Below, one piece after another: positions 1 to 21,219 of a stretch of DNA of 22,286 nucleotides. The notes beneath the pieces were generated by a model that saw nothing but the letters and a program-made list of their open reading frames with translations, had not been told where the DNA came from and did not search any database. Source of the DNA: a virus; the IMG/VR virus record IMGVR_UViG_3300028394_001408, positions 1 to 22,286 of that record, one strand, 5' to 3'. Every line of letters begins with the position of its first letter. Position 1 is the first letter of the stretch. A program made the translations under genes and the position numbers.

Positions 1-18
1 TCTAAAAACGAAAAAAAC

Positions 19-1716: not shown

Positions 1717-1729
1717 AGGAATATTTCCT
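1717..1729 (-). promoter_or_regulatory. Small hairpin covering the ribosome binding site
   Basis: On the mRNA strand AGGAAATATTCCT lies directly before the ATG at 1716. AGGAA can pair with UUCCU (5 bp, 3-nt loop), which would hide the Shine-Dalgarno AAGGAA of the small basic protein. The pairing is seen in the sequence; a regulatory effect is inference, and a 3-nt loop with a short AU-rich stem is only marginally stable. Confidence 0.3.
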
Positions 1730-1733
1730 TATT

Positions 1734-4394: not shown

Positions 4395-4626
4395 TTTTCT
4401 TTTCTTCGTATTTTTTAAACATACGAGTCACATCTTCCATACGTTGCTGGAATATATGCGGAGCATTTTCAGCCGCACGAATCATGTCAGATTCACTAGG
4501 ATAGTGGCGTAAACAATATCTTGCACCATCTTTAATTGTTTTTGGAACTCGAGGAGTAGACAGGATCTCAAGTAAAAACTTTTGAGTCTGTACTACTGCT
4601 CGATATCTTTCATCAGGTAATGTCAT
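4381..4626 (-). CDS. BPSL0761-like small protein
   Basis: An 81-residue protein of unknown function. It begins MTLPDERYRAVVQTQKFLLE and carries ARYCLRHYPS, a pattern I associate with the BPSL0761 family of small bacterial and phage proteins (roughly 'DERtrAv..tr.FL.el' then 'LRHYPs'). The sequence looks all-helical, ending in a charged stretch. The start is the ATG at 4624-4626; the frame extends two codons to a TTG that I did not use. It overlaps the DpdA gene by 14 bases upstream and the Gfo/Idh/MocA gene by 14 bases downstream. The family name is from memory and gives no function. Confidence 0.7.
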   Translation of the reverse strand: MTLPDERYRAVVQTQKFLLEILSTPRVPKTIKDGARYCLRHYPSESDMIRAAENAPHIFQQRMEDVTRMFKKYEEKKNEQA

Positions 4627-6178: not shown

Positions 6179-6909
6179 TATTTGCTTTGTGCTGGAAGAA
6201 TATAGTTGTATTCTGTAATACCACTATCTACAGTGATTTGCATAGCGCCTTGATCACTGATACGCATGGTTGCAGTTCCAGCTAATCCAAGGATACTGAT
6301 AACTTGATTAACGGGCCACATCCATGAGTGCTTTAGTTTGCCACCAACATCGTGTTGGAACACAAACGATCCAGCATGTGTGCTTGCATCACCAAAGAAA
6401 AATACCAAATTTCCGTCTTCTGTTTTAACTTGGAACACTTGTTCTTCAGAGTGTACTTGTGCTTGAAGTTTCAATCTAGCAATGGATGCAAGCGAAGGTT
6501 CAAATTCAATGTCCCATCCATTGCCTTTAAACTTAACACTCTTAAGTTTCTCGTTAATAACTTCAGTACTCATAAAACGATAATCGTTTACAAAGTCACT
6601 TGTTGTATTTTCAAAATGCAAACTTGTTGGAATCTCTGCACCGTTACGTGTAGATTTAATAACATTGATCTTTGCATTTTCTTTGTACTCTGGGTTTTTT
6701 AAATGCAATGCTAATTTATCCAAGTTAGGCATGCCAAAAACACCACTGAACTCATTTACTGGTGAGTGTGTTTTAGCATTAAGAATAACGCTACGGTCTT
6801 CTGCCATTGCCTCAATAGTTGTTGCCAACTCTTCTCCTGTGACCTTAACAGTACTCAAAAAGCCCAAACTGTGTGTATGTGTTACGATGTCTTGTAAAAT
6901 GTCTTTCAT
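6178..6909 (-). CDS. 45: DNA polymerase sliding clamp (gp45-like)
   Basis: A 243-residue protein read as the trimeric processivity clamp of a T4-type replisome. T4 gp45 is 228 residues and made of two similar beta-alpha-beta domains. Here the first domain has VNEFSGVFGMPNLDKLALHL, comparable to the gp45 'DFDVAIYDLNGFLGIL' segment. The second has FEPSLASIARLKLQA, a strand-rich middle (NLVFFFGDAS), a helix (WPVNQVISILG) and the final strand ITEYNYILPAQSK, a typical clamp ending. The start has a strong AAGGAG 6 nt upstream and a perfect sigma70-like promoter just before it. It sits downstream of the polymerase gene, and the polymerase ends in a clamp-binding-like peptide. Overall identity to gp45 looks low, so the call rests on strand order and context. 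Confidence 0.78.
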   Translation of the reverse strand: MKDILQDIVTHTHSLGFLSTVKVTGEELATTIEAMAEDRSVILNAKTHSPVNEFSGVFGMPNLDKLALHLKNPEYKENAKINVIKSTRNGAEIPTSLHFENTTSDFVNDYRFMSTEVINEKLKSVKFKGNGWDIEFEPSLASIARLKLQAQVHSEEQVFQVKTEDGNLVFFFGDASTHAGSFVFQHDVGGKLKHSWMWPVNQVISILGLAGTATMRISDQGAMQITVDSGITEYNYILPAQSK

Positions 6910-6926
6910 AATTATCTCCTTGTTGT

Positions 6927-6955
6927 ATTATAAGTTAGTTTTTACTGTGTGTCAA
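6927..6955 (-). promoter_or_regulatory. Sigma70-type promoter for the clamp/dpdA unit
   Basis: On the minus strand TTGACA (6950-6955) and TATAAT (6927-6932) are both exact consensus with a 17-bp spacer. Transcription would start near 6920, only about 10 nt before the clamp ATG, and the ribosome binding site AAGGAG (6916-6921) would be at the very 5' end of the transcript. The -35 box lies in the last codons of the radical SAM gene. It resembles the promoter at 12229-12257 and is likely read by the host polymerase early in infection. Confidence 0.72.
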
Positions 6956-8432
6956 CTGTTTGTTCAAGTAATCTTATCAAAGGATCATAATATTCTTTGA
7001 TAGGATCGTTAATACATCCTGTTGTTTTAATTGAAGGCGATTTTTTACGATATTTTTCAATTTTAGCATTTAATTCAACAGTTAAGTCAACCGCTTGCTT
7101 AAAATTGTTAATATCAGTATTGTCATCTTTTGTCCAAAAATATGGTTGTTTCATATCAGGTATTTGATAACCATATTTTTGATAATTTAAATCCATATCA
7201 CTCCTATTGTAATTAGGAGATATATCAGACATTGGGTTTAATATTAGTGGGATTGTGTGTAGTTTTGTAATTGGACAGTTGTCTTGAATACACCACTCTA
7301 CAGTATCTCTAACACTTTTTGAATCTTCTCCTGGAAGTCCAACAATATATCCAGCGTCAACCCATACATCATCTTTCCATGCTTCACGCATTTTCCAAAG
7401 AGTTTCTTTTCTTTTTTCTGCTGGCATTCCCTTACCGATGGCTTTAGATGCAACTGGATGAAATGAATCAACACCAATCCATGTAGAATATAATCCTATT
7501 TGTGTTAACAGTTCAATTTGTTCTAAATTTATAGCAATTACATCTAGTCTAGTATAAGCTCTAAGTGATAATTTAAATGGCAGTTTGTTGGTAACTTCTG
7601 CAATGTGTTCTAATTTTGTAGTGGAATCATTTAAAGTGTCATCAGAAACCCAGTAATTAGTTACACCCCATTGGTCATAATTACTCATAAATTCTTTATA
7701 TAAGACATCTTTGTCTTTAATATACTGAGAAATATCTTTTTTACCAATTAACGGATACGAACAAAAGCTACATTTAAATCTACACCCTCTTGTGAATTCA
7801 ATGTTCATTACTTCATTGGGTTTTATAAAATCTGTTTTTTGATAGTTTGTTTGACTTAATTTAAAATCCCAAGTTGGACCAGCTGCCGCTGTATTGTGTT
7901 TAATAACTTTAGGCCATATTCTTTTTTTAGTTTTAAAACTATCCAATAATTCTATAATTTGAACTTCACTGAGACCAGCCATGAAATAATCTACTGGTGC
8001 ATCAGCATAGTCATCAATTTTGTGTCCACCTACTATTGTTTTAATATTTGGGTTTATATTCTTAGCAACATCTATCCATTGATTTAAATTATTGGTCATA
8101 GCATCGTATATTAATCCTTTATTTGGAAACACATCATCAATAGTAGTAGTTGATGCAAAGTCTAACAATCTAGAAGCACGTTTGCTATTTGTAAATGGGG
8201 TTCTGTAAGGCCACCAAGTAGTGCTAAATCCTATTAGTAAAGTATCACTACCTACAGCTGAATTACATATTTTTCTCCAATACTCTAGACTTAGCTCACT
8301 ACTAAAGTCTAATACTAAACAACTATACCCGTTATCTTTTAAATGACTGGCCAAACGATAACATCCGTATCCACGCATCCATACAGGGTATGAAGTTGTA
8401 TCTGAAAATAATATAACGTTATATCCGTTCAT
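6942..8432 (-). CDS. Radical SAM protein with B12-binding-like N-terminal domain
   Basis: A 496-residue radical SAM enzyme. The iron-sulfur cluster motif is TRGCRFKCSFC with Cys217, Cys221 and Cys224 (CxxxCxxC). The N-terminal 170 residues look like the cobalamin-binding-type Rossmann domain found before many radical SAM cores: a first strand with NGYSCLVLDF, IGFSTTWWPY, then TIVGGHKI and VDYFMAGLSEV, the usual 'VGG..vd.vv.GegE' region with the GEGE end altered. After the cluster come WVSDDTLNDS, LSLRAYTRLD and YIVGLPGED, matching later strands of the SAM barrel. Substrate unknown; it is far too large and different to be QueE. It overlaps the upstream sugar dehydrogenase gene by 14 bases. It could act on a sugar, a modified base or a peptide; nothing in the sequence decides. 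Confidence 0.87.
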   Translation of the reverse strand: MNGYNVILFSDTTSYPVWMRGYGCYRLASHLKDNGYSCLVLDFSSELSLEYWRKICNSAVGSDTLLIGFSTTWWPYRTPFTNSKRASRLLDFASTTTIDDVFPNKGLIYDAMTNNLNQWIDVAKNINPNIKTIVGGHKIDDYADAPVDYFMAGLSEVQIIELLDSFKTKKRIWPKVIKHNTAAAGPTWDFKLSQTNYQKTDFIKPNEVMNIEFTRGCRFKCSFCSYPLIGKKDISQYIKDKDVLYKEFMSNYDQWGVTNYWVSDDTLNDSTTKLEHIAEVTNKLPFKLSLRAYTRLDVIAINLEQIELLTQIGLYSTWIGVDSFHPVASKAIGKGMPAEKRKETLWKMREAWKDDVWVDAGYIVGLPGEDSKSVRDTVEWCIQDNCPITKLHTIPLILNPMSDISPNYNRSDMDLNYQKYGYQIPDMKQPYFWTKDDNTDINNFKQAVDLTVELNAKIEKYRKKSPSIKTTGCINDPIKEYYDPLIRLLEQTVDTQ

Positions 8433-9198
8433 TAGTTTTTATCATATTATTGTATTCAATTGCTGTTTCTAATAAATCAAAACTTTGATTAATTGATTGT
8501 GCATATTGAACAAATGCCAATGTATCTTTAGGGAAGCAATGCCCACCCCATCCTCTTTCACCATCAATACCTGGCACCATACTGTGACTAGTACCAATCC
8601 TTACATCCTGACATACTAGATGTCTTACTACTTCAAAATCTTGCCCAGTTGTTTCACACAAGTCATACAAGTGATTAAAGAATGAAACTTTAATAGCAAG
8701 AAAACTATTAGTAGCATATTTGACCATTGCGGCTTCTTCTGGCGTACACTTGTGTATAACTTTTAAATTGACCAGTGAGTCTTTAAAAAGTAAATGCCAA
8801 AAGTTAGCCGGATCATCTCCACCAATAATCATATACTTTTGAATGGCAAAATCCTCAACAGCTGACTTTGCCCTTAAAAATTCTGGACTAAACACAATAC
8901 TATGGTCTGGATATTTTTCTAAAACATCTTTTAGTAAATTGGGACTAATAGTACTTTTTATTAAAATAGGCATAAAAATTGGCACTTGATCAATTACATT
9001 AACGATATTGCTAATGTCACAATTGCCAGAATCATCACTTGGTGTGTTAACGCAAATAACAATTCCGTCAGCATCAATGTGTTGTGCAACAGTAACTTCA
9101 GTGTATTTAGGATCAACGACAATAATCTCGTTTTTATTTTCTAAAGCACCTTTGACTGCTTTACCAACATAGCCGTAACCTGCTACAATTATCTTCAT
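8419..9198 (-). CDS. Truncated UDP-glucose/GDP-mannose dehydrogenase-like protein
   Basis: A 259-residue nucleotide-sugar dehydrogenase homologue. The NAD-binding motif is GYGYVG (residues 7-12); VICVNTPSDD and SPEFLRAKSA match the family 'v.vpTP' and 'PEFLreGsA' segments; Lys160 and Asn164 lie in the central helix; GWGGHCFPKDT holds the catalytic Cys221. The enzyme would oxidise the 6-hydroxyl of a UDP- or GDP-sugar to a uronate. The chain stops about 30 residues after the catalytic motif, so the third domain, which completes the nucleotide-sugar site in the usual 390-450-residue enzymes, is absent. Start chosen at 9198, one base after the polymerase stop (TAATATG); the upstream Met lies inside the polymerase gene. 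No frameshift remnant of the third domain is visible downstream, where the radical SAM gene begins at once. Confidence 0.85.
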   Translation of the reverse strand: MKIIVAGYGYVGKAVKGALENKNEIIVVDPKYTEVTVAQHIDADGIVICVNTPSDDSGNCDISNIVNVIDQVPIFMPILIKSTISPNLLKDVLEKYPDHSIVFSPEFLRAKSAVEDFAIQKYMIIGGDDPANFWHLLFKDSLVNLKVIHKCTPEEAAMVKYATNSFLAIKVSFFNHLYDLCETTGQDFEVVRHLVCQDVRIGTSHSMVPGIDGERGWGGHCFPKDTLAFVQYAQSINQSFDLLETAIEYNNMIKTNERI

Positions 9199-9199
9199 A

Positions 9200-11866
9200 T
9201 TAGAATTCAAACAGTTTATTAAACGTGTTTTTCTCCTCGGTACTCTTAATGTCCCAATCCAACACACCAATCAAGTTGTCCAGTTTGTTGTCAATAATTG
9301 TTTGCTCCATCTCAGTGTGGTCAAATGGTAAATCTTTAAACCATTGTGGCAAACGCAATTCATCAACTGGATATGCCACACTGGTAAATGCCATTGGATT
9401 ATCTTTAATTTTACATACAATAACTTTAGCACCATCAGTAATGTTGGCACTGTATTTGTCATCATACATACGCTTGAGCGTGTTCCAGTTAATACTTGCT
9501 CTAACGTGTCCAGGCAAGTTTGCTTTGCCAGCCTTGCGTTCTTTTTCTTGATATTCAGTAATGTTGTTGGCACGTTTAGGCGAACCTTTTTCCCAACCTG
9601 GTCTTGCTTTGAATTCAGTTCTAAATGCAGTAATATGCTCTAACACTTCTTTCTCAGTTGCACCAGTTAGTACTTTCTCCAATACATCACTTAAAAAGTT
9701 TTGTATAAATTCTGGAGTATCACTGCGTTTAAGGTCAAGTCCCATGGCTTTGATCTTGCCTGGCTTACCATCTACGTCACTGCGTTTGCCTTCTTTATCA
9801 TAATACAGCACAGCATAACGTTTCTTAGTAATAAACAAACCTTTACTTGCAACAATTTCACGACCAGCTTTAATAACCTCGCCGCGTGTTTTTGGACAGT
9901 GAAAACTGTCCGACATAAACTGTGGAAACGTATTGTTAACTTCAGATGCAATTTGATCATACAGTTGTACTACGGTTTCTTTCGTCCACGGAATCGCTCC
10001 CGAGTCGATATCTTTTTTAAGCGTCTTATAAGCACTAAAATAACAACTATCGGTATCACCATATATAATAGCTTTTCCCACATGATTATATTCTCCAGTA
10101 ACAATTTCATTGACCTTAGATGCCATGTGCTTGCAAATTGTACGTCCAGTTAGAGTAGTACTTTGACCAATACGATTATCAAAGAATCTACAACCAGGAT
10201 TAAGAATAGCACCATACAAACTGTTCAAGTTAATCTTCTTGACTAGTTGACGTTTGTCCCAGTATTCTTCTTCAATTTTATTTCCAGCATTAATGGCGTC
10301 TTTGAGTTTGGCCTGCATTTCTTTACGTTCTTTATACCAACGTGCAAGAAGTCCAGGGATAACGCCTTCTGTATTATGTGTAAAGATTGTGCCGTTAGCA
10401 CTGAGCATCCAAGGTTGATTGCTTTCAAATATAAGCCTGTATACCTCTGCGCTACTTAGTACGTCATTATCTCCATTTTCCCAATCAATAACAATCTCTG
10501 TGCCAACTTCTTTGTTCATTACACTGGTATATTCTAATGCGGCAAATATACCTTCCCATGAACCAGCAAACGATTTACCTTTGGCAATTAAGCCTTGTAT
10601 ATGGTCATTGGTCATTGTTTGACGTAATTGTCCAACGATAGTTTCTGGACCCATGTTAAGCGCACGAATTGCTGACGGATACAAGCTGTTAATGTCCAAT
10701 GATCCAATCCAATCTTGTAGACCTTCTTTTGGATGTGCAACATATGCACCAGCCGCTTGATTCTCTTCACGTTCACTCATCTTAGTTCGACTTGGAACAA
10801 CCATGCCTCTACGATGTGCTTCATTAATAATGGCCTGTTCAGTTACAGCCACAGCACCCATTGTGGTCTGTAGTAGCACAGTATTTTCATGTGCTAGTGT
10901 GTTGGCTAGATCCAAAAACTTTAGTTTCTTATCCAGTCTATCCAACAGTGACGTATCTTGTCTGTTGTATTCAATAAATGTTTTAAAATCATTATTGTAT
11001 AATTGATCCAACGTGCCTTCGTATTGTGTTTTTCGTTCACCCAGTTCATATTCGGCAATGGCATCCAGTCTATATGTATGACGTTCTTCATATGTGTATC
11101 TGCGATACAACTCCAAACTGTCCAAGTGTACACGACCCACAAAGTCATATGTTACACTTTGACGCCCAAACTTTTCATACTCACGGCGTTTGGGGAATTG
11201 ATTGAACAAACAAAAACGTCTAGTATCGTCTTTGCTCAATACCTTAGTAACACGATTAACTGTATAGGGAATATCATAACCTTCGCTGTTCCAACCAGTT
11301 AGTATATCTGCATCTTGTATGAGATCCAAAAACGCATCCAACATTTCACCTTCTGTTTTAAACAGCATGGTGTTGGGAAAGTCTTTAATTTCTTCTTGGG
11401 CCTGTTCCCATGTTAATGTCTTTGGAGGAACAGCAAAACACACTAGGGTTTCCAACCACTGTAAGTGTACGGCAATACTGGTAATTGGCATGAACGCATC
11501 GTCGGGTGTACTATAACCACGTTCAGGGTCAAAGTCTACCTCAATGTCGAAAAACGCCACATTTAGTTTTGGGGGATCTGCGTTAACGTAATTTTCACTC
11601 AAACACACAAACACTTGGTTAATGTCTGCTTCATAAATCTTTTTGTTTGAGTGTATCTTTAGTTCTTTGTGAAAGTCTTTTTGTGTTTTACATACAACTT
11701 TGCTAACAGGGTTGCCGTAAATACTTGTGTGCTTGCCCTTTTGGTCGTCATAGTAAAAGGTGTAGCGAGCCGGAATATCTCTAAATACCCGTTCGCCTTT
11801 CTTGTTGCGTTCAACCACACGAACCATATCATTGGCGCGGTCAAACCATGCGTCTACATAACTCAT
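9200..11866 (-). CDS. 43: Family B DNA polymerase, T4 gp43 type
   Basis: An 888-residue replicative polymerase with 3'-5' exonuclease, close to T4 gp43 in length (898). Exonuclease motifs: Exo I FFDIEVDF (Asp107, Glu109), Exo II NSEGYDIPY (Asp198), Exo III YNRQDTSLLDR (Asp304). Polymerase motifs: A, SLDINSLYPSAI (Asp391); B, KKINLNSLYGAI (543-554); C, YGDTDSCYFS (Asp604, Asp606). All catalytic acids are present, so both activities should work. The C-terminus NTFNKLFEF resembles the clamp-binding tail of T4-type polymerases. Good ribosome binding site (TGGAG, 5 nt before ATG). Just upstream is a hairpin like the gp43 translational operator. The gene follows the DsbA-like gene after about 80 bases and is probably read from the same promoter. 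Confidence 0.97.
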   Translation of the reverse strand: MSYVDAWFDRANDMVRVVERNKKGERVFRDIPARYTFYYDDQKGKHTSIYGNPVSKVVCKTQKDFHKELKIHSNKKIYEADINQVFVCLSENYVNADPPKLNVAFFDIEVDFDPERGYSTPDDAFMPITSIAVHLQWLETLVCFAVPPKTLTWEQAQEEIKDFPNTMLFKTEGEMLDAFLDLIQDADILTGWNSEGYDIPYTVNRVTKVLSKDDTRRFCLFNQFPKRREYEKFGRQSVTYDFVGRVHLDSLELYRRYTYEERHTYRLDAIAEYELGERKTQYEGTLDQLYNNDFKTFIEYNRQDTSLLDRLDKKLKFLDLANTLAHENTVLLQTTMGAVAVTEQAIINEAHRRGMVVPSRTKMSEREENQAAGAYVAHPKEGLQDWIGSLDINSLYPSAIRALNMGPETIVGQLRQTMTNDHIQGLIAKGKSFAGSWEGIFAALEYTSVMNKEVGTEIVIDWENGDNDVLSSAEVYRLIFESNQPWMLSANGTIFTHNTEGVIPGLLARWYKERKEMQAKLKDAINAGNKIEEEYWDKRQLVKKINLNSLYGAILNPGCRFFDNRIGQSTTLTGRTICKHMASKVNEIVTGEYNHVGKAIIYGDTDSCYFSAYKTLKKDIDSGAIPWTKETVVQLYDQIASEVNNTFPQFMSDSFHCPKTRGEVIKAGREIVASKGLFITKKRYAVLYYDKEGKRSDVDGKPGKIKAMGLDLKRSDTPEFIQNFLSDVLEKVLTGATEKEVLEHITAFRTEFKARPGWEKGSPKRANNITEYQEKERKAGKANLPGHVRASINWNTLKRMYDDKYSANITDGAKVIVCKIKDNPMAFTSVAYPVDELRLPQWFKDLPFDHTEMEQTIIDNKLDNLIGVLDWDIKSTEEKNTFNKLFEF

Positions 11867-12313: not shown

Positions 12314-13969
12314 TTATACGCTAAATTTTTGATTCGCCGCCGCACCACCAGCTGCCTGTTCAGCGTCAGCAATTGCTTTTTGGATCTCTGGATCGTCTTG
12401 GAAAGCACTTCCATCATCGCCCATCAATTCTTTTTTAATTGCATCAATCTCAGTAGTCAATGCTTTGATATCATCTACATCTGTTGCTCCTGGAGTCGGT
12501 GTTGTACCACCTTGATCAGCGTGTGGATTCTCTTTTCTAGGAGTTGGCGTTCCAGTTTGTACTGCTGGCACAACTGCTGGAGCTTCTTCTGGCTTGCCGC
12601 TTAATGCGTATGCTGTTCCGCCTGCAACTGCCGCGGCACCAAGACCAGTTTTAATTGGATTAGCTTTAACAACTTTTGCTGTGTTGTATGCGGCACGTTG
12701 TGTTACCGGTGCCTTGGCCAATTGTTTTGCAAACTGTTTAGAACTTTGACTAGTCATTTGTGGGGCACCAGCTTTTGTTAGTTTACCAGTGGCAACCGGA
12801 GCACCTGAAAATCCTGTCTTAGCCGCTTGGTATGCACCTCTGACACCGTCAACGGCTTTGCCACCATATTTAACTGCGGCATCCCACAGTCCTTCATCAA
12901 CACGAGTTTCAATCATTAATAACCTATCTCTTAGAGCCGCATATTTTTCAGCTTCGGATAAACGTGATTCTTCTTTTGGCACAGCATTTGCACTAATTGG
13001 ATCACTGGCCGGCACTTTCTCCAGCGCCGCTTTTAATGAAGCCGCATTAGATTCTGGAGCAGCCGCAGTAGCACCTTTACCTGGCGCCTTGCTTGCACTT
13101 GCCTGTAATTTTGCAGTGATCTCTTTTAATCTAGCAAGTTTTTCTGCTTTGAATTTTGCACTTGCTTCAGCACCTTGAGTAGAAGGTAGACCGGCATTCT
13201 TTTTAAGGTTTGCTAGGTCTGCTGCCGCTTCTTCTCCAGGATTACCTACTCCTGTGGCAGCACTAGTACCGCCGCCGGCATTGGCTCGCATGGCTGCACC
13301 TTGTTCAGCATCGTCTCTGTCTGCTTGATTAGGATCAACTTTCTGTGGTACTGGTGTTGCCGCTTGAGCAGGAGTCGCTGCCGCTTGACCTTGTTGTGCT
13401 GGATCTTTTGCCATATTTGACGCCGCACCTGTTTGTGGTGCCGCCGCTGGATCACCACCGCGCATTTTTGCTGGAGACGCCGCTGGAGCCGCAAATGTTG
13501 ATGCATCACCTTGTGTACCAGCACCAACTAAATTTTTAATTTTGTTAAGATTATTAGCGCCAAAATTCATTCTTTTGGCAATGGCTTGATCTTCTGGATC
13601 TTTAAAATAACTAAATGGTGGTTTAGGGCCAGGCATTCTAGCTAAAATATAAGGATCTTGCCTATTGGCTTTGCCCAACCATGTGTCTTGTTCAGGACTA
13701 AATTGAAATTCTTCAGCTTCATCTAATTTATAACCAAATTCTTGAATTAAACCACGTGCAATTCCACTTTTAAACATAGATGATTCATCTATATCTGAAA
13801 CTTTATAGTATTTGACAGAGTGGCTCTCTTCCGCCACACTTGGTTGACTATCAATGTTTTGATTGTGATTTTGTGTCGGAGTATGATCATACTCAGCAGG
13901 ATCACTAGCTTCGTTCATGCTCTTAGCTTCAATTTGATCCATTCTTGCAATTAATTTTTGTAAGTCCAT
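12314..13969 (-). CDS. Large Ala/Pro/Gln-rich virion-type protein, function unknown
   Basis: A 551-residue low-complexity protein. It begins MDLQKLIARMDQIEAKSMNE, similar in pattern to the start of the neighbouring 13987-15609 product. A short ordered region (about residues 50-145) includes IARGLIQEFGYKLDEAEEF and LARMPGPKPPF. Then come long Ala/Gln/Pro stretches, a charged helical part (YAALRDRLLMIETRVDEGLW) and, near residue 450, a hydrophobic Gly/Ala segment GLGAAAVAGGTAYALSG that could sit in a membrane. The C-terminal 60 residues are acidic and helical. The gene follows AAGGAAAA and ends just before the terminator. I recognise no enzyme domain. A virion or injected-protein role is inferred from context and composition. 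Confidence 0.75.
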   Translation of the reverse strand: MDLQKLIARMDQIEAKSMNEASDPAEYDHTPTQNHNQNIDSQPSVAEESHSVKYYKVSDIDESSMFKSGIARGLIQEFGYKLDEAEEFQFSPEQDTWLGKANRQDPYILARMPGPKPPFSYFKDPEDQAIAKRMNFGANNLNKIKNLVGAGTQGDASTFAAPAASPAKMRGGDPAAAPQTGAASNMAKDPAQQGQAAATPAQAATPVPQKVDPNQADRDDAEQGAAMRANAGGGTSAATGVGNPGEEAAADLANLKKNAGLPSTQGAEASAKFKAEKLARLKEITAKLQASASKAPGKGATAAAPESNAASLKAALEKVPASDPISANAVPKEESRLSEAEKYAALRDRLLMIETRVDEGLWDAAVKYGGKAVDGVRGAYQAAKTGFSGAPVATGKLTKAGAPQMTSQSSKQFAKQLAKAPVTQRAAYNTAKVVKANPIKTGLGAAAVAGGTAYALSGKPEEAPAVVPAVQTGTPTPRKENPHADQGGTTPTPGATDVDDIKALTTEIDAIKKELMGDDGSAFQDDPEIQKAIADAEQAAGGAAANQKFSV

Positions 13970-13986
13970 TTTACGTTTTCCTTGAA

Positions 13987-15609
13987 TTATTTCAATGCTT
14001 GTTTTGCCATTGCACCAGCTGCCGGAGCAACTGCTCTCACAGCCGCCCCCACATTACCTGATGGTGCTGGAGTTGCCGCTTGTGCTGGCGCCTTAATTCC
14101 AGCCGCAGCCAATGCTGTTCTTGTATTTTTACCAATTACACCATCAACTGTTAGACCTTTAGCCTGCTGGAAGGCCTTAATTTCATCTGGTGTTGTTGGA
14201 TACTTAGTTGGATTGGGAATTGTACCTTTGCCAGCCGCTGGTGTTGCCGCTTGTCCAGCTTCGTCTGGAGCAAACGCACCTGTCTTTACTTTATAGTCTC
14301 GTGCCAGTTGAGCACCAGCCAAACCCATCGTTGCCGCAGTGCCAACCCCTGGAATAAAACTTGTTACTGCACCAAGACCACTTAGTCCAGCACCAATGTA
14401 ATCACCTTTCGTAGCACGGTCATATGCATCGTATGCACCAACTGCCGCACCAACTCCCGGAATTAATCTACTGGCCATCTTGCCACCAACTGAACCTGCA
14501 ACTTTTGCAGCCGGAGCCGCTGCCGCTACCGCTACTTCGCTGATTGGGTGTCCCATAACAATTTTTGTATTGTTATACTGAACATAAGCACGACCTTCTT
14601 TAAGGTCTACAACTTTACCAAACACTGATTTCTTCAATACGTTACTGTATACTTTAACTGGTGAACCAACTTTAACACTGCCGTATGCGCTTTCTGCTAG
14701 TTGTTCACTAACTGGTGCGCCTGTTTCGTGTACACTTATTTTTTTAGCTGGATCACGCATTTGTATTTTACGGGCAATGGATTCAGCATGATTTCTTGTA
14801 CCAAATACTTTCCAAGTTTTTCCATTGATAGCAACTGCATAGTTGTTAGTTTCGTGACCTAACTCGTGCTCCATTTCTTGTCGCTTAAATTCTCGATGAC
14901 TGCTGCCGTCCATACCAGCAATACTAGAATCATAATCACGTTCGTATGCGTCTTTACCAAAACGACCTTCTTCAATCTTTTCGCAGTCGTTAACACGCTT
15001 GCCGGCATTCTTACCTGTACCTGGCTGTGTGCCTACCTTTTTATGACCTGGCCAGCACTTTTGTGCTCCAGCCACTTCCGCTACATCTTTTTCTTTCTTG
15101 CTTAACTTTTCTGTTTCACGACGTGCTTTGTCACTTAGGTTAGTTACTTTACCACGACCATCTTTTTTAGCAGTGGACTTTTTCCACTCGCCCTCGTCTT
15201 TCCAACTTGTAACATTGCCGTCTTTGTCTCGTACTTCAGTACGGTCTTCATCCATTGGAACAAGTTCTTTTTTGTGTTTGATGTCGCCTTGCTTTTCAGC
15301 TTTCTTTTTATCTTTGTGTGGACCAGCACCAGCTTTAGGTGCATTTTTGGCAACAAAGTTACGCACTGCTGGTTTGTCTTTGGTAGTCTTACCTTCTTCA
15401 AGTTTGTCTAAAACACGACTTACTATACGTTTAACTTCTATCTTTTTCTGAGCATGTTGTTCGTTAATGTTTTGCAACACTTCATTGTTAACTGCTTTAA
15501 AATATTGCTCAGTCTTGCTGACAGTGGAAGCAGATACACTTTCAGTTATAACTGCTTTTTGTTGTACTCCACTGTTGTCAACAATGGATAAAAGTTTTTT
15601 CATGTCCAT
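13987..15609 (-). CDS. Lys/Ala-rich virion-type protein with peptidoglycan-binding domain
   Basis: A 540-residue multi-part protein. Start taken at 15609, one base after the upstream stop (TAATATG); the frame extends upstream only inside the neighbour. Parts: an N-terminal MDMKKLLSIVDNSG; a highly charged Lys/Glu region; CWPGHKKVGTQPG with a second Cys further on, a short Cys-bounded basic motif; a central region with YAVAINGKTWKVFGTRNHAE; a small beta domain (YGSVKVGSPVKVYSN to GHPISEV); a Gly-rich hydrophobic region (LIPGVGAAVGAYDAY and FIPGVGTAATMGLAGAQLA); and, at about residues 473-504, a PG_binding_1-type repeat (IKAFQQAKGLTVDGVIGKN). The last suggests contact with the cell wall, as in tail-tip or injected proteins. 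No muramidase catalytic motif is visible here. Confidence 0.78.
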   Translation of the reverse strand: MDMKKLLSIVDNSGVQQKAVITESVSASTVSKTEQYFKAVNNEVLQNINEQHAQKKIEVKRIVSRVLDKLEEGKTTKDKPAVRNFVAKNAPKAGAGPHKDKKKAEKQGDIKHKKELVPMDEDRTEVRDKDGNVTSWKDEGEWKKSTAKKDGRGKVTNLSDKARRETEKLSKKEKDVAEVAGAQKCWPGHKKVGTQPGTGKNAGKRVNDCEKIEEGRFGKDAYERDYDSSIAGMDGSSHREFKRQEMEHELGHETNNYAVAINGKTWKVFGTRNHAESIARKIQMRDPAKKISVHETGAPVSEQLAESAYGSVKVGSPVKVYSNVLKKSVFGKVVDLKEGRAYVQYNNTKIVMGHPISEVAVAAAAPAAKVAGSVGGKMASRLIPGVGAAVGAYDAYDRATKGDYIGAGLSGLGAVTSFIPGVGTAATMGLAGAQLARDYKVKTGAFAPDEAGQAATPAAGKGTIPNPTKYPTTPDEIKAFQQAKGLTVDGVIGKNTRTALAAAGIKAPAQAATPAPSGNVGAAVRAVAPAAGAMAKQALK

Positions 15610-15610
15610 A

Positions 15611-16690
15611 TTATTTTTTCGCTTGGTTTTTCCACATAGCGGCAGCGGCAATTTTCTCACCTTTCTCACCACCACCAGCAGCCTTAGCTACTTTGTCAAA
15701 ACTCTTGCCTGGCTTGCCAATGTCTTTACCTGCTGTTGCTTTTTTAGCAACTGCTGATTTTTCTTTAGCTGTCATACCAGCACTTGGTTTACCTTCCATG
15801 TAACTACCACATTCTTTTAGACCGTGTACTGGACATTTTTTGCCCTTGGCTGTGTGATTGCATTTTCCCTCACCAAGTGCCGCACTTGCTCCTGCTTTCT
15901 TTAAATCTGCGCCGGTGGCTCTCATTCCTGGTACTGTAGTCTTTGCTGTTGCCGAAATACCAGATTTTTGTGGTGCACCACTTATTGCTGTTTCTTTAAC
16001 TGGTAAGCCAGCTGCCTTACGACGTGAACCAATAACTTCGTCTTTTTCAGATTCTACTTTACCATCTTTGTCGTAATCTTTTTTAGCTTTCTTAGCTTCA
16101 TCTAAATCTTTTTTACGGAAGCTATCAACAGTATCACCTTTGCTCTTGGCATCACGTTCAACGCGATCTCTTACATCGCCTTCTGTTTCGCCTTCTTCAG
16201 CTTCGTGTGTGGAACCTTTTGTGACTTTACCGTCTTTGCTTGTTGTCTTGGCAAAGTATTGTGATTTTTCAGACTTAGTAACAGCACCCTTCTTCTTGTC
16301 AGAAGCACGGGCTTCACTAATTTCTTCTTTCTTTTCTTTCTTTTTGGCTTTGTCAGCTTGAACTTTCTTGAGATCTTTGATCTTTTCTTTAGCTTCGTTT
16401 AGCTTGGCTTTTAAAACACGCTTTTGACTTTCTGTATAAACATCGCTGTCATCAATAGCCTGTCCGTATTCACTAAACTTCATTTCATATTCCAAGTAGT
16501 GATATACTGAAGCAATATAATCAGCTGACTTTGTAATTTTAGCCTGTACCCAACCTTCAAGTTGTGTATTAGATTCCATCATTTTAAATAGCTTCAAGCT
16601 ATAGTTTGCCAATTTGTATAGATCAGCTCGGGCCATTGCGCCTTCATTGTCTGGTCTGTTGTCAAATTGTGGTTGCTGATCGATGTGCAT
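15611..16690 (-). CDS. Lys-rich virion-type protein with EF-hand-like and Cys/His motifs
   Basis: A 359-residue protein of a type I associate with T4-like marine phages. An ordered helical N-terminal domain (ARADLYKLANYSLKLFKMM, WVQAKITKSADYIASVYHYL) is followed by a long Lys/Glu coiled or disordered stretch. Residues 205-218 read DYDKDGKVESEKDE, close to an EF-hand or dockerin calcium loop. Residues 277-294 hold Cys277, His279, Cys286, His289 and Cys294 (KCNHTAKGKKCPVHGLKECG), which could bind a metal. The C-terminal 50 residues are Gly/Ala/Lys-rich. The ATG at 16690 has a CGGAG site; an internal Met at residue 19 (MARADLY) is an alternative start. Function unknown; a structural role is inferred from neighbours. 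Confidence 0.78.
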   Translation of the reverse strand: MHIDQQPQFDNRPDNEGAMARADLYKLANYSLKLFKMMESNTQLEGWVQAKITKSADYIASVYHYLEYEMKFSEYGQAIDDSDVYTESQKRVLKAKLNEAKEKIKDLKKVQADKAKKKEKKEEISEARASDKKKGAVTKSEKSQYFAKTTSKDGKVTKGSTHEAEEGETEGDVRDRVERDAKSKGDTVDSFRKKDLDEAKKAKKDYDKDGKVESEKDEVIGSRRKAAGLPVKETAISGAPQKSGISATAKTTVPGMRATGADLKKAGASAALGEGKCNHTAKGKKCPVHGLKECGSYMEGKPSAGMTAKEKSAVAKKATAGKDIGKPGKSFDKVAKAAGGGEKGEKIAAAAMWKNQAKK

Positions 16691-16712: not shown

Positions 16713-16719
16713 TATTTAG
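16713..16719 (-). promoter_or_regulatory. Weak candidate late promoter (CTAAATA)
   Basis: CTAAATA on the minus strand, 22 bases before the start at 16690 and overlapping the stop of the preceding gene. It differs by one base from the ATAAATA core of T4-type late promoters. The same 7-mer also occurs inside genes (for example at 9114-9120), so it is weak evidence on its own. Confidence 0.22.
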
Positions 16720-16952
16720 CGTTTTAAGGGTGAACCACCAAATATGCTGGTTTTCATGTCCAGCGCATTTTTAGCAGTCCCATCTTTATTCTTTGCTTGC
16801 ATTGCTTTAGGCGGGTTAGGATTACCACCTTTTCCGTATTTCTTACGTGCTTTTTTATCGCCTATAGCAAGGTTAGGGCTTACTACAGTTCCCATCATTG
16901 CTGATGTTGTAGTTCCCCCATCTGACTCGGCAATAATTTCAACTATTTTCAT
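16716..16952 (-). CDS. Small virion-type protein with CTS-like N-terminus
   Basis: A 78-residue protein of unknown function. The start is the ATG at 16950-16952, one base after the endolysin stop (TAATATG); an in-frame TTG four codons upstream was not used. The N-terminus MKIVEIIAESDGG resembles the T4 capsid-targeting sequence (MKTYQEFIAEA in the internal protein IPIII), including an IAE|S that fits the (I/L)xE cleavage rule of the T4 prohead protease. The rest is Gly, Asn, Pro and Lys-rich (KKARKKYGKGGNPNPPKAM) and probably unstructured, as expected for a small packaged basic protein. The packaging role is inference. Confidence 0.68.
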   Translation of the reverse strand: MKIVEIIAESDGGTTTSAMMGTVVSPNLAIGDKKARKKYGKGGNPNPPKAMQAKNKDGTAKNALDMKTSIFGGSPLKR

Positions 16953-16953
16953 A

Positions 16954-17586
16954 TTAACTTTCAAAAATCTCTAATGCTTGATTCCAATGTGCAATACGAT
17001 CATCTAACCCAATTGTACCGCCGTTGATTCTCTTGCTCAATGTAACTATATCACCAGCATCACTCCACTGATTTAAGTTATTTTTCTTCCAAAACCAGCA
17101 AGCACTCAGTGTAGCATACTCTGGATGTGCCACTAGATCAGGGTCTTCTACTACGTGGTCATCACCAAATACATCGTGACTGAAAGCTGTATAGTTAGCT
17201 CTACCAGTAAGTTGAACTAGTCCACGTCCACGAAACTTCCAACCGTCTCCGCTAGCTTCAGGGCCGTTGCCCATTCTTCCAGAATATACTCTGTTGGCAA
17301 TTAGTTCTGGTTTACGCTCGTACGGCTTTGCAACTTCTTCTGTTACAAAGTATTTACGGAATGTACCGTTTAAACCTTTTGCGCTATAGTTTAAGTTTTC
17401 TTGTAATATTGTGAAATCTGCACTTTCATGTTGACACTGTGCCACAAATCCTGCTACGCGAGCTGGTGTGTTAATGTCAAATGCTGGTAAATGCTTGCTT
17501 AGTGCATCAAACCAAGGAGCTGGGTTTCTGTTTTTATGCAAACAAGCAGATAATTTTTCTAAAGTAAAATCAAAGTCAAAATCCAT
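16954..17586 (-). CDS. GH19-family endolysin (chitinase/lysozyme fold)
   Basis: A 210-residue single-domain lysin that should cut peptidoglycan glycan strands to release progeny. Family 19 motifs are clear: FVAQCQHESADF with the catalytic acid Glu54, ENLNYSAKGL, ANRVYSGRMGNGPE, GWKFRGRGLVQLTGRANY, ACWFWKKNNLN and SKRINGGTIGLDDR. There is no signal peptide or membrane segment, so it would depend on a holin, which I do not see in this window. GGAG lies before the ATG, and a candidate late promoter (17607-17614) stands 21 bases upstream. The length fits compact GH19 phage endolysins. Confidence 0.95.
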   Translation of the reverse strand: MDFDFDFTLEKLSACLHKNRNPAPWFDALSKHLPAFDINTPARVAGFVAQCQHESADFTILQENLNYSAKGLNGTFRKYFVTEEVAKPYERKPELIANRVYSGRMGNGPEASGDGWKFRGRGLVQLTGRANYTAFSHDVFGDDHVVEDPDLVAHPEYATLSACWFWKKNNLNQWSDAGDIVTLSKRINGGTIGLDDRIAHWNQALEIFES

Positions 17587-17606
17587 GTGTTTCTCTCCAG
17601 TTAGTG

Positions 17607-17614
17607 TATTTATT
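17607..17614 (-). promoter_or_regulatory. Candidate T4-type late promoter for endolysin
   Basis: AATAAATA on the minus strand matches 7 of 8 bases of the T4 late promoter TATAAATA. Transcription would start near 17601, leaving a leader of about 15 nt that holds the CTGGAGAG ribosome binding site. The motif overlaps the stop codon of the upstream gene. AT-rich DNA makes chance matches possible, but the placement before a lysis gene fits late expression. Confidence 0.42.
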
Positions 17615-17912
17615 TGTTTTTAGAACCAACTGGTTGTTCGCCAGTCATATATGGCAAACTAAACCACAGTTGGAACCATTCAGGAGTGCCAGGTTTAATA
17701 TTATGTTGTTTCATAAGTTCACCTTTGCTATTTCCCGTGCCACTAATGTTACTACCCTGTAACCCTTTGTATTCTTGTAGTCTAGCTGAACTTCCAAGAC
17801 CAGCTAGATATTGTAATGCCTTTAATTCGTGTGTGGGATCATCAGGAGCAAGATAACAGTCATCTTGACTGTCTTGATTCAAATGCTCTGTTTTGATCTT
17901 GTATTGTTTCAT
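17610..17912 (-). CDS. Small conserved phage protein, function unknown
   Basis: A 100-residue hypothetical protein. It begins MKQYKIKTEHLNQDSQDDCY, continues LAPDDPTHELKALQYLAGLG and ends with KPGTPEWFQLWFSLPYMTGE, a segment I associate with small proteins of T4-like marine phages. The N-terminal half looks helical and acidic, the C-terminal half aromatic. Its ATG overlaps the upstream stop (ATGA), so it is coupled to the HxGH nucleotidyltransferase gene. No catalytic or binding motif can be named. A virion role is possible from location only. Confidence 0.75.
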   Translation of the reverse strand: MKQYKIKTEHLNQDSQDDCYLAPDDPTHELKALQYLAGLGSSARLQEYKGLQGSNISGTGNSKGELMKQHNIKPGTPEWFQLWFSLPYMTGEQPVGSKNK

Positions 17913-18898
17913 TTAGTTAAGTTAAATGCTTTTAAATTTTTACGTAATGTGCCTGGACCAACATCTGCTGTGCTGTTTTGTTTAGTAACAATACCAACAC
18001 CTGCGGCTTCTTCGCCTACTGCTTTATCAGTTTTGTATACGTCTCTTGTTGCTTTAAATGTTTTTAATTTGCTTAACTCATCTGGACGTAACTGGACATT
18101 GTTTTTGATCTTCTGTACCAGCATCATAATGTCTGGAGGAATGTCTGATGATTTTGCTACATTAGGTGCTTTTGAAATAGCAGTTGCCGCCGGCTTGGCC
18201 AAGAAGCTCATAATGCCTTCTGCCGCAGCCTTTTCTTTCTTGGCTCGTACTTTAGGCTTGCTAAAGTCTTGCATACGTTGTAGTGCTGTTGCCATTAGGT
18301 CACGTACTTCCTGATCGCTTAGTTGTGGACTCATTGCATCACGCCAAACGTTAAACTTTTCTTGGTCATTCATATTTGGATCAACTAGTGCTTGACGCAT
18401 TGGTGTAGCACGTGGACCTTCTTCTTCTCTACTAGGGTCATTTGTATCTTGACGAGCAATGACTTTCATATGCTCTAGACCAAATTGCTTATATGGTTCA
18501 ATGCCTGATTTGTCAGGACGTACTAGATACTGGAAAGCATTAACTTGATCAGCACCAACTACTACAGTTACGTCACTGTAGCCCATAGTGGCTAATTTTT
18601 TAAGAACTCTGTTTAAGTCAGGCATTTCTTCAGTTGCAGTTTTAAATACTTGCGGATTGTTTGGAAATACCTTGTTATAGATTTGAAGTTTTTCTTCTGG
18701 GCTTAATGGATCGTCTTTGCCCATTGTACGACTAATAACAAAATATGGATCAGATCCTGACTCGTTTGCCTGTGTCAATACGCTACTGGCAAGGAACATA
18801 TGTCCTTTGTGTCCCATACCACGGCCCCAGCCTACTACTGCGCTTTTACTTTCACCTGTACGATCTAAACTTTCAAAAAATAATTCTCTTAATAGCAT
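17909..18898 (-). CDS. HxGH nucleotidyltransferase (cytidylyl/NMN-adenylyltransferase-like)
   Basis: A 329-residue protein with an N-terminal nucleotidyltransferase domain of the HIGH superfamily. GWGRGMGHKGHMFLASSVL holds the HxGH motif (His30, His33); VISRTMGKDDPLSPEEK and YNKVFPN match the next segments of phage and bacterial NMNAT-like proteins; VTVVVGADQV is the central strand; RATPMRQAL stands where the ISGTxxR motif is expected. Such enzymes transfer AMP or CMP to a phosphate-bearing substrate (NMN, pantetheine phosphate, glycerol phosphate); which one is not visible. The C-terminal 120 residues are Lys/Ala-rich. Start at 18898 (TAATATG junction). The N-terminus MLLRELFFESLD resembles those of three other late genes. 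It is the third member of a coupled cassette. Confidence 0.82.
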   Translation of the reverse strand: MLLRELFFESLDRTGESKSAVVGWGRGMGHKGHMFLASSVLTQANESGSDPYFVISRTMGKDDPLSPEEKLQIYNKVFPNNPQVFKTATEEMPDLNRVLKKLATMGYSDVTVVVGADQVNAFQYLVRPDKSGIEPYKQFGLEHMKVIARQDTNDPSREEEGPRATPMRQALVDPNMNDQEKFNVWRDAMSPQLSDQEVRDLMATALQRMQDFSKPKVRAKKEKAAAEGIMSFLAKPAATAISKAPNVAKSSDIPPDIMMLVQKIKNNVQLRPDELSKLKTFKATRDVYKTDKAVGEEAAGVGIVTKQNSTADVGPGTLRKNLKAFNLTK

Positions 18899-18899
18899 A

Positions 18900-20060
18900 T
18901 TAATCTTTCCTTGGCGCCCAGTTGCCTTGGTCAATTGTTTTTACAAATTGTCCTGGCAAATCACGTTTAAACTCTCCACCTGGGTGAGCTTGTACATAAC
19001 CTTCTGGTTTAGTTTGTTTAATGCCACCGTGTGTGCCAGCGTTAAGCGCATTAATTAATTTCATTTTTGCTCTAGTCAATTGTTCCACAGCGTTTAGTGT
19101 TGGGTTAAGTCCTGGGTGATTTAATATCTTTTCAGCTTTGCCACCAGTTGGGAATTGTTGTCTAACCCATTGTTCAAACTTACTCTTAACGCCTTCAATA
19201 CGTAAATTTTGATTAAAGAAAGAATATAATACATCACCCGGTTTAGCAAGACCTGGTTGTCCAGCAATAAAGCTATCTATACTTTCAGCGTTTTGTTCTA
19301 TAAATTGTTCAGCTTGATCCAAGTCGCTTTGCTCAAACTGTGGTGCTTCTTGTACATAGGTTGTGCCCTGTACCAGCACTTCAGCTGTTGATAATTCTTC
19401 AGCATTTGGATAACGTGATTCACTGCCATCACCTAGCTTGTCATAAAAGCCAGTTGCCGCAACCATAACCTTGGCTGATTTAATTTTAGCACCCAAGTCA
19501 CTATCTTGAGGAATGTGGAATGTTGTTATGTTTGGTTTAAAATCGTAAGTTTTTGTTTTGGGATTTAATACAGGCATTGCTGAACTACCATCTGGTTTTG
19601 ATCCAGGATAAAATAATAGTCCGCCTTCAATAAATCCTTTTTCTGGACTTATGCTTTCAAAATAACTCCACAAACTTGCCAATTGATCAGCATACCCTTG
19701 GCGTTGTTTTTCTTTACCCGGCTCAGCTTTGCCAGTGTTTAAAATAAAATTACTAATGTCTTTAGGGCTAGTCATTACAGTACTAACACCGTTAGTAGTT
19801 TCTTTCTTGCCACGCTTTAAGTAGTCCCATGCATTTTTAGGAATTAACATAAAACGACCAGCTTCATCACGGCCCCAATATATAACTGGACTACCGTCCC
19901 ATTTTAATTCTATACTGCCGCCTTGTTGACTCATTTTACGCATACGTTCAACGGCATGTAATCCACCAACACTGCCATTAGTAAAAACTAAATCTTCAAT
20001 GTGTTGATATTTGCGACCTACTGCTGGAGCTGCCGCTTCAAATAGTTCTCTTAATCTCAC
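18900..20060 (-). CDS. KxDG ligase-like protein (DUF6267-type)
   Basis: A 386-residue protein with ligase-like signatures. HIEDLVFTNGS and SIELKWDGSPVIYWG resemble marine T4-like phage proteins that I recall as DUF6267. Lys53-Trp-Asp55-Gly56 fits motif I (KxDG) of the covalent nucleotidyltransferases (RNA/DNA ligases and capping enzymes), where Lys carries AMP. GRFMLIPK could be motif III, KGFIEGGLLF (Glu145) motif IV, and AKIKSAKV motif V. RNA- or DNA-ligase activity is inferred from these short motifs. The start codon is GTG (20058-20060) within a GTGA overlap, with AAAGGAT upstream. The N-terminus MRLRELFEAA resembles a capsid-targeting sequence. The C-terminal 150 residues are helical, with no domain I can name. 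Confidence 0.72.
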   Translation of the reverse strand: MRLRELFEAAAPAVGRKYQHIEDLVFTNGSVGGLHAVERMRKMSQQGGSIELKWDGSPVIYWGRDEAGRFMLIPKNAWDYLKRGKKETTNGVSTVMTSPKDISNFILNTGKAEPGKEKQRQGYADQLASLWSYFESISPEKGFIEGGLLFYPGSKPDGSSAMPVLNPKTKTYDFKPNITTFHIPQDSDLGAKIKSAKVMVAATGFYDKLGDGSESRYPNAEELSTAEVLVQGTTYVQEAPQFEQSDLDQAEQFIEQNAESIDSFIAGQPGLAKPGDVLYSFFNQNLRIEGVKSKFEQWVRQQFPTGGKAEKILNHPGLNPTLNAVEQLTRAKMKLINALNAGTHGGIKQTKPEGYVQAHPGGEFKRDLPGQFVKTIDQGNWAPRKD

Positions 20061-20824
20061 GACAGCATCCTTTTCATACGACTAAACCACTCGTTAGTTC
20101 CTACAGTAGGAGTTGCGGCTTGCCAACTTGCTGAACTACGGGCCTTGTCAAATATTTCATTACGCTTTGCTTCATCAGGAATTGCGGCTAAAATGGATTC
20201 AACACTGCCTAAACTATCTGCATTGGCACCCTTGCCCAACAAATATTGTGCAATCTCATCCAAGTCATCACTTAAAAAGTCTGCCTTCTTGCCTTGCTCA
20301 TCTCGCTTATACAGTCCTTCATCTGGACTCCATAATAGACCTTGACTAGATGCAAGACTATTCATCATCATTTGTTTATTGACGCCTTTGTAAGGACTAC
20401 CAGCGGGAATTTTGTGTCTGTGGAACGCGGCAACTTTTTCTGCCTTGCGTACCACTTTAATATCTACTTGATGAAACTTGCCTTGAAATGGCAACAATAT
20501 ATGTACAGTAACACCAGCTTTGTATGTTTTAACACCTTTGGATTGCAAATAGTCATCAAGTGCTTGTCTAGCGGCTTTGTCTTCGTCAGCAAGTTTTTTC
20601 ATTTTAGGAATGTCAAAAAACTTTTTAACTAGATCCATGTCGGTCATTACATCTAAATCGCCACTCATTTTTCCAGGAGTAGGAGTTGCCGCGCTGCCAA
20701 TAATGTGAACTTTTAAACCAGTACCTTGTAGTAATCTATCAGTGGCTTGGTCCAGTTCAGGAGCAATCGCTTGATCAAACGGTTCTGATTCTGGCCAAAT
20801 ATTACCGCCTTCTATAAGTATCAT
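20057..20824 (-). CDS. Pol-beta-fold nucleotidyltransferase
   Basis: A 255-residue protein with the nucleotidyltransferase (pol-beta) signature: IIGSAATPTPGKMSGDLDVM gives the G-S turn (Gly43-Ser44) and the D-x-D pair (Asp56, Asp58); HQVDIKVV supplies the third carboxylate (Asp121). These bind two metals and a nucleotide, so the protein should transfer a nucleotide to a hydroxyl or another acceptor. The loop between GS and DxD is a little longer than usual. The middle of the protein includes FHRHKIPAGSPYKGVN and a helical C-terminal half. The ATG overlaps the upstream TGA (ATGA) and AAGGAAA precedes it. Its stop overlaps the GTG of the ligase-like gene. Target unknown; tRNA or other RNA ends would suit the ligase partner. 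Confidence 0.8.
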   Translation of the reverse strand: MILIEGGNIWPESEPFDQAIAPELDQATDRLLQGTGLKVHIIGSAATPTPGKMSGDLDVMTDMDLVKKFFDIPKMKKLADEDKAARQALDDYLQSKGVKTYKAGVTVHILLPFQGKFHQVDIKVVRKAEKVAAFHRHKIPAGSPYKGVNKQMMMNSLASSQGLLWSPDEGLYKRDEQGKKADFLSDDLDEIAQYLLGKGANADSLGSVESILAAIPDEAKRNEIFDKARSSASWQAATPTVGTNEWFSRMKRMLS

Positions 20825-21219
20825 TTGTAATTTCCTTCACGCATATTGAGCATTTCAGCTTCGTGGATTTTCTTACAAACTTCTTCAATCATCTCTTCTT
20901 CTAGAGAATCTCTAAGTTCTCTCAATGGAAATTCTTTTTGGTAAATGCCATATGCTTTTTCCACTACTGGTTTAAAAACCCTGTGACTGAAATTATTGCC
21001 CTGATCAAAGTTCTTTTTGCATAAACGTATTACAGGGAAAAAGTTCTTACGATAAAAGTCATCGTTGTTGTGCATAAAATAGATAAGGTCTTCTGCTAGG
21101 TCAAATGTTAGTTCATCATCAACCCTGCCTGTGTCGTTTGGCCCGTGTTTCATGCTGATCTTATCAAGCCCAAACTCTTTATCTATTTTATTTCTGTCAA
21201 ATAATTCTGTTATTTTCAT
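20821..21219 (-). CDS. Conserved phage protein with CTS-like N-terminus, function unknown
   Basis: A 132-residue protein. It begins MKITELFDRNKIDKEFGLDK and continues with a helical core: DLAEDLIYFMHNNDDFYRKN, then FFPVIRLCKKNF, VVEKAYGIYQKEFPLREL and a charged C-terminal helix ending MREGNYK. I associate this type with marine T4-like phage hypotheticals. No enzyme motif is visible. It leads the nucleotidyltransferase/ligase cassette and is coupled to it by ATGA. A candidate late promoter lies 42 bases upstream, so it probably heads a late transcription unit. Its N-terminal motif resembles those of the endolysin-adjacent small protein and of two cassette enzymes. Confidence 0.78.
   Translation of the reverse strand: MKITELFDRNKIDKEFGLDKISMKHGPNDTGRVDDELTFDLAEDLIYFMHNNDDFYRKNFFPVIRLCKKNFDQGNNFSHRVFKPVVEKAYGIYQKEFPLRELRDSLEEEMIEEVCKKIHEAEMLNMREGNYK

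Follow-up and report, generated by a model that had tools for sequence, protein, structure and literature searches.

A predicted capsid-targeting leader shared by nucleotidyltransferase-like and small proteins in a gene cassette of an uncultured T4-related virus

In phage T4, the head cargo proteins Alt and the internal proteins (IPs) are made with short N-terminal propeptides; in the T4 record Alt starts with MELITELFDEDT (MELITELFDE), and IPII and IPIII with MKTYQEFIAEA. The T4 prohead protease gp21 follows the cleavage rule L/I-x-E, which has been described together with a capsid-targeting sequence (CTS) (PMC9026906), and Alt is cleaved at ITE-6 (PMC5694885). Here we analyzed a 22,286-base IMG/VR virus record, IMGVR_UViG_3300028394_001408 (the whole stretch is referred to as the window), which comes from an uncultured, T4-related freshwater virus and has late-type genes on the minus strand. 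An earlier note on this DNA had described four N-termini of a shared pattern, which are present as described at 16952, 18898, 20060 and 21219, and are real and beyond chance. We propose, with a probability of roughly 0.8, that these N-termini serve as a common capsid-targeting leader containing a prohead-protease site, functionally like the Alt and IP propeptides of T4, and that the mature proteins are kept in the head and delivered with the DNA. As relatives of one of these enzymes occur in virions of cultured cyanophages, the window virus probably brings the enzymes of this cassette to the next cell inside its particle. The earlier interpretation, which took the T4 internal proteins as its model, is partly supported: it names the correct kind of system but lacks some of the details.

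The cassette genes, with the names used below, and a neighboring group are as follows (aa, amino acids; a slash outside brackets marks a putative cut):

16716-16952, minus strand: A78, a small basic protein of 78 aa; leader MKIVEIIAE/SDGGTTTSAMMGTVV, 16926-16952.
17909-18898, minus strand: B, a cytidylyl-/NMN-adenylyltransferase-like protein of 329 aa (PHROG 3041/395); leader MLLRELFFE/S, 18872-18898.
18900-20060, minus strand: C, a DUF6267 protein (PF19782) of 386 aa with ligase-like KWDGSP; GTG start; leader MRLRELFE/AAAP, 20037-20060.
20057-20824, minus strand: D, a nucleotidyltransferase-like protein of 255 aa with GSAATPTPGKxSGDLDVM; short N-terminus MILIE/GGNIW, 20810-20824.
20821-21219, minus strand: E, a helical protein of 132 aa; Alt-like leader MKITE/LFDRN, 21205-21219.
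12314-16690, minus strand: three large low-complexity/multidomain proteins of 359, 540 and 551 aa, moderately enriched in [ILVM]xE[SATG].

Gene starts were assigned by simple rules. Upstream of the starts at 16952 and 18898, the longest open reading frame (ORF) begins at a TTG (at 16964 and 18934 respectively), and homologues favor the internal ATG; the GTG start at 20060 is backed by homologues with an ATG in the same place. Gene D (20824-20057), lying between the four genes noted earlier, is a fifth member of the cassette; it starts MILIE/GGN here, and most of its fused homologues have the full leader.

The pattern was scored as M-x-[ILVMF]-x-E-hydrophobic-hydrophobic, with one start per gene compared against matched start-like codons inside genes; as these internal codons control N-terminal composition incompletely, the gene starts of jumbo phage CBB served as an added control. 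Within the window the pattern occurs at 4/27 gene starts and at 0/255 internal start-like codons (p = 7e-5), a count that taken alone is post hoc because the pattern was defined from the same four starts. More proteins with this start, which the earlier note had proposed to look for, were found in two larger relatives, G001 (181 kb) and G003 (345 kb), where, with the window's own families excluded, 9 of 589 gene starts match vs. 14 of 4735 internal codons (p = 4.6e-4). Among these matches are MKVYEIVSEAAV, MKIYEIITEAKV and MKIKELLTESLN, and in both genomes the head-gene cluster encodes a matching protein of 80 aa (MILRELFYIDP); some matches in G003, such as MEIKELFPTLV, appear unrelated. Across about 130 related IMG/VR loci, the pattern is present in 181/1125 distinct genes vs. 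6/5508 internal Met; it starts 47 of 50 members of the E family, whereas the neighboring Clp-like (0/48), DnaJ-like (0/36) and DNA polymerase (0/40) families lack it. An enrichment for which every start codon within the first 60 residues was counted proved overstated and was replaced by the one-start-per-gene count. The 80-aa protein (L147 4620-4860 in G001; 92877-93182 in G003) lies upstream of an acidic gp67-like protein and gp21, and is possibly a prohead core protein carrying the same leader; its counterpart in CBB (180229-180459) starts MLDEIFEAKDD.

Homologues from the same IMG/VR loci show a module of 8-14 residues, ending in [ILVMF]-x-E, that has been gained, lost or swapped between them. 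The D protein starts MILIEGGN in the window and MLLRELFxNxxxPLLEGGN in many homologues; 20 distinct nucleotide versions of MLLRELF occur in the D family, which argues for selection at the protein level. Similarly, B starts MLLRELFFES in the window but in many cyanophages has a T4-IP-like start (MKKFSAFLNEAE or MKSFLEFITEA); it lacks a leader and starts straight with the domain in S-WAM2, MED4-213 and S-CAM3. In the E family, conserved M1, I3 and E5 are followed by 0-30 unalignable residues and then by the conserved domain. Structure models agree with this division: the predicted local distance difference test score (pLDDT) of E rises from about 50 at residues 1-40 to above 90 in the domain, and that of C is below 50 at residues 1-16 and about 90 in the domain. 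Because the leader is present, absent or exchanged among homologues, and is joined by a variable linker and poorly modelled, it is a separable module rather than the start of the conserved domains, a distinction that the earlier note had asked an alignment to make.

The (I/L)-x-E sites of T4-gp21 type that had been noticed on the leaders are strictly conserved as hydrophobic-x-E. Such a site, with E at P1, I, L, V, M or F at P3 and a variable P2 (N, F, L, T, K, S and others), is present in every one of the 48 distinct C and 40 distinct D sequences, and the 16 A78 sequences shown all keep [ILVMF]xE. The sites in the window are IAE/S in A78, LFE/A in C, LIE/G in D, ITE/L in E, and FFE/S or LRE/L in B. 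All four of the original proteins have a candidate [IL]xE at residues 3-5 (ITE, LRE, IVE), mostly with a later one too. The fourth protein, E, had been regarded as a misfit for its Asp; the Asp is indeed there, but E fits through ITE-5. Its start, MKITELFDRN, matches T4 Alt at ITELFD and is therefore the closest of the four to a T4 precedent, so that the nearest model for E is Alt (MELITE/LFDE), which had been missed, rather than the internal proteins.

The same residues also occur where there is no free N-terminus. C follows D within a single fused protein in about half of its homologues (nucleotidyltransferase (NTase) + DUF6267, sometimes + cytidylyltransferase), and a hydrophobic-x-E site stands at every fusion joint: INE/AAAP, LLE/ASAP or ITE/AAAP before C, LLE/GGN before D and LQE/DL before B. 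At locus L039, D, C and B form one reading frame of 1564 residues with joints LFE/GGN, ITE/AAAP and LQE/DL. As these residues persist whether a leader or another domain lies upstream, they probably represent a processing site, and their presence at the joints would be difficult to explain otherwise.

Further prohead-protease substrates may possibly be found in the three large proteins at 12314-16690, each with 6 [ILVM]xE[SATG] motifs vs. 1.5-2.2 expected (p 0.005-0.02, uncorrected). These proteins are Ala/Lys-rich with small shuffled domains (DUF7230, PG-binding, LPD15-like), and the same domains are fused to A78 in relatives. A 100-aa protein (17610-17912) and its relative in G003 (176689-176902) have in common (L/V)xE/[YF]KGLQ just before the conserved part, following an LAG(L/V)-like stretch. 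With IRRLAGLKI also standing at the end of the gp22-like protein of G001, this is possibly another core-binding motif.

The gp21-type protease that the earlier note had suggested searching for is encoded in five larger relatives (G001, G003, G005, G006 and G011), in which PF03420 (gp21 protease) and PF07068 (gp23) both score above cut-off; in G001 the gp21 homologue lies at 114476-114916. In the gp23-type major capsid proteins (MCPs) of these five relatives, the conserved capsid domain is closely preceded by KYLME/SPTAGATSAGNVATLNRV or close variants, where the CBB MCP has LRE/SATAGATSAGNIATLNKV; position and motif suggest that the MCP is cut at this KYLME-type site. The A78 relatives carry xE/SATAGATSAANIGTVDAP, near-identical to this predicted maturation site of the phages' own MCP, and the leader or fusion joint of A78 homologues reads [ILVM]xE/[ST]A.AGATSA. 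We ran a 29-residue profile of the MCP site over all ORFs of the window, G001 and G003 and over the A78 homologues, and it matched MCPs at about 1e-23, A78 members at 7e-8 to 2e-3 (a single weak one at 0.22) and nothing else, the next unrelated ORF scoring 0.93. The core string of the site is found in exactly two proteins per genome in G001 and G003, namely the MCP and A78. The A78 of the window (IAE/SDGGTTTSAMMGTVV) is a diverged member that the profile does not match. A gp22-like protein adjoining the protease and MCP contains 14 [ILVM]xE[SATG] motifs vs. about 3 expected, an excess as expected of a scaffold that would be destroyed by the protease.

Virion proteomics is available for cyanophage homologues of B. 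The T4-GC190 protein, a member of the B family, was detected in S-SM1 virions (Sullivan et al., 2010; PMC3037559), as were the B homologues ORF154 in S-CREM2 (PMC10665884) and ORF91 in S-SCSM1 (PMC9602691). In all three cyanophages this cytidylyltransferase homologue has a T4-IP-like leader: MKKFSAFLNEAE in S-SM1, MKNFSSFLTEA in S-CREM2 and MKSFLQFLKEA in S-SCSM1. In S-CREM2, the IP-like pattern occurs on 5/52 virion-detected vs. 0/182 other genes (p = 5e-4); the pattern had been loosened slightly after inspection of the list, and a tighter one derived from other phages (^MK.F..F[LI].E) still matches ORFs 6, 14 and 154. The RELF form is not enriched there. The cyanophage papers left open whether T4-GC190 is carried in the virion or co-purifies (PMC3037559, PMC10665884, PMC9602691), and in a literature search of incomplete coverage we found no paper tying the virion NMNAT/cytidylyltransferase to a capsid-targeting leader. 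Other virion-detected proteins of S-CREM2 are the SAM hydrolase (ORF6) and the APH-like kinase (ORF14), both with clean T4-IP-like leaders, and Cas9 (L190, OR473000, 7704-10313, minus strand; detected by mass spectrometry), which has LRFASFMAE/AAVDQ after a longer N-terminus.

Could the recurrent start be chance, N-terminal composition bias, or simply the beginning of conserved domains? Its shortness and degeneracy, and the seemingly unrelated matches in G003, fit such an origin, but the matched controls largely refute it; together with the absence of the leader from CBB, a comparable jumbo phage, the homologues that lack the leader, the low model confidence over it and the strict conservation of hydrophobic-x-E, this makes the explanation scarcely credible. 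Alternatively, the leader could dock these proteins onto a complex outside the head, such as an intracellular enzyme assembly or the tail/baseplate. Its concentration in one gene cluster might indeed mean that the proteins form one complex, but it is also found on the 80-aa head-cluster protein and on unrelated proteins elsewhere, B homologues occur in purified cyanophage virions, and the leaders closely resemble those of T4 Alt and the IPs, so that we regard a non-head complex as very unlikely. A third alternative is a head-docking motif that stays uncut, with x-E as part of a docking helix. In the T4 CTS, the residues for targeting and processing are partly distinct, and an Asp at position 10 prevents processing while targeting persists (PMC9026906); E of the window has an Asp after LF, and ITE-5 is its sole fitting site. 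Docking alone does not explain why [ILVMF]xE also persists at fusion joints inside proteins, with no leader helix before it, or why A78 relatives have the MCP maturation site, and it appears unlikely.

Several points weigh against a cleaved capsid-targeting leader in the window virus itself. The window is too short to contain head genes, and the gp21 and gp23 of its phage are predicted from relatives. The virion evidence covers the IP-like leader of cyanophages and not the RELF form, and of the cassette families the proteomics covers B, through its cyanophage homologues. The S-SCSM1 proteome (1/48 virion vs. 1/257 other proteins) has too few matches to give any power. In CBB, a test fixed beforehand found no IP-like leader and the RELF pattern at background level only, a negative result that confines the leader to T4, cyanophages and the clade of the window. 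Further, the E protein of G001 has no leader, so E is perhaps not always packaged, and one clade of B (MLLREFLNRTG) retains only the LRE site at residues 3-5.

The enzyme identities proposed earlier hold in outline. B matches PHROG 3041 (2e-19) and also PHROG 395, and PF01467 (CTP_transf_like) matches 4 B homologues only (best 1.8e-5); it is probably a HIGH-type nucleotidyltransferase. C matches PF19782 at 2.5e-16 (60.4 bits vs. a curated cut-off of 27) and has an invariant K53-W-D-G within K-W-D-G-x-P; this KxDG is ligase-like, and the best PDB fold matches of the C model are tRNA/RNA ligases, which are weak (E 0.004-0.1, TM 0.22). In D, G43, S44, D56 and D58 (GS...D-x-D) are invariant, with only a weak match to NTP_transf_2 (0.019) in 2 homologues. 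Profiles of C and D gave no convincing relative among PDB sequences, the E model had no fold match in PDB, and a literature search for DUF6267 returned nothing.

In the proposed mechanism, the leader would dock each protein onto the prohead core late in infection, and a gp21-type protease would then cut after [I/L/V/M/F]-x-E, removing 5-15 residues; in fused proteins the same cut would separate whole domains. The mature HIGH-type nucleotidyltransferase, polymerase-beta-like nucleotidyltransferase, ligase-like DUF6267 protein and two small proteins would stay in the head and be delivered together with the DNA. For the window virus we infer all of these steps, from core docking, cleavage and packaging to delivery and enzyme action in the new host. 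A head cargo of three nucleotide-moving enzymes would be in keeping with host RNA or proteins being repaired or modified early, by a logic like that of Alt, although this is a guess. It is possible, though we suggest it tentatively, that the virion is pre-loaded with a kit of three nucleotidyl-transfer enzymes, often made as a polyprotein (leader-NTase-DUF6267 or leader-NTase-DUF6267-cytidylyltransferase) split by the head protease in the prohead, and that, in the opening minutes of infection, this kit acts on RNA or proteins of the host to repair or modify them.

If this holds, a sequence rule may predict which phage proteins travel inside the head, making proteins that phages inject besides DNA testable from sequence. 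The leader would explain the recurrent cytidylyltransferase/NMNAT in cyanophage virions, and the same N-terminal rule marks other S-CREM2 virion enzymes (SAM hydrolase, APH-like kinase and, in a longer form, Cas9). It is also suggested that T4-type head proteases split fused cargo enzymes.

The DNA polymerases nearest to those of the window clade are from the jumbo phages Phosso, Atu_ph07 and Rak2-like, the group to which CBB belongs; no member of the clade is known as an isolate, and tblastn of A78, D and E against isolates gave no match. Positions 1-9270 of the window, after the DNA polymerase gene, contain genes for sugar/nucleotide-type enzymes, which, from translations read by eye with no family search, resemble UDP-glucose dehydrogenase, a radical-SAM B12-type enzyme, a Gfo/Idh-type oxidoreductase, a zinc-type alcohol dehydrogenase and a glycosyltransferase. 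In G003, a Dps-like ferritin gene (176901-177339; by eye) lies within the cassette, between B and A78.

Compared with known systems, family E (MKITELFD) has the same M-x-[IL]-[IT]-x-E-L-F start as the T4 Alt propeptide, which is borne by a virion-carried enzyme; Alt is an ADP-ribosyltransferase, whereas the leader here is on non-homologous proteins and its cleavage is predicted from sequence. The CTS of T4 IPI, IPII and IPIII (MKTYQEFIAE/A) is a 10-residue leader ending in [I/L]xE/A or S, to which MKIVEIIAES and MKIYEIITEA (in G001) are close and the cyanophage B homologues (MKKFSAFLNE/A) very close; the leaders in the window differ in being mostly 8-9 residues long, with E at position 5, and in being on nucleotidyltransferases. 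The virion-associated NMNAT/cytidylyltransferase of cyanophages (T4-GC190), detected by mass spectrometry in S-SM1, S-CREM2 and S-SCSM1, is a homologue of B. The gp21 rule L/I-x-E of T4 is the same here, with V, M and F also accepted at P3. Lastly, A78 relatives share xE/S.[ST]AGATSA(G/A)N(I/V), the gp23 maturation site of T4-like phages, with the MCPs of relatives and CBB, although A78 is a protein of 70-180 aa that, apart from this site, is unrelated to the MCP.

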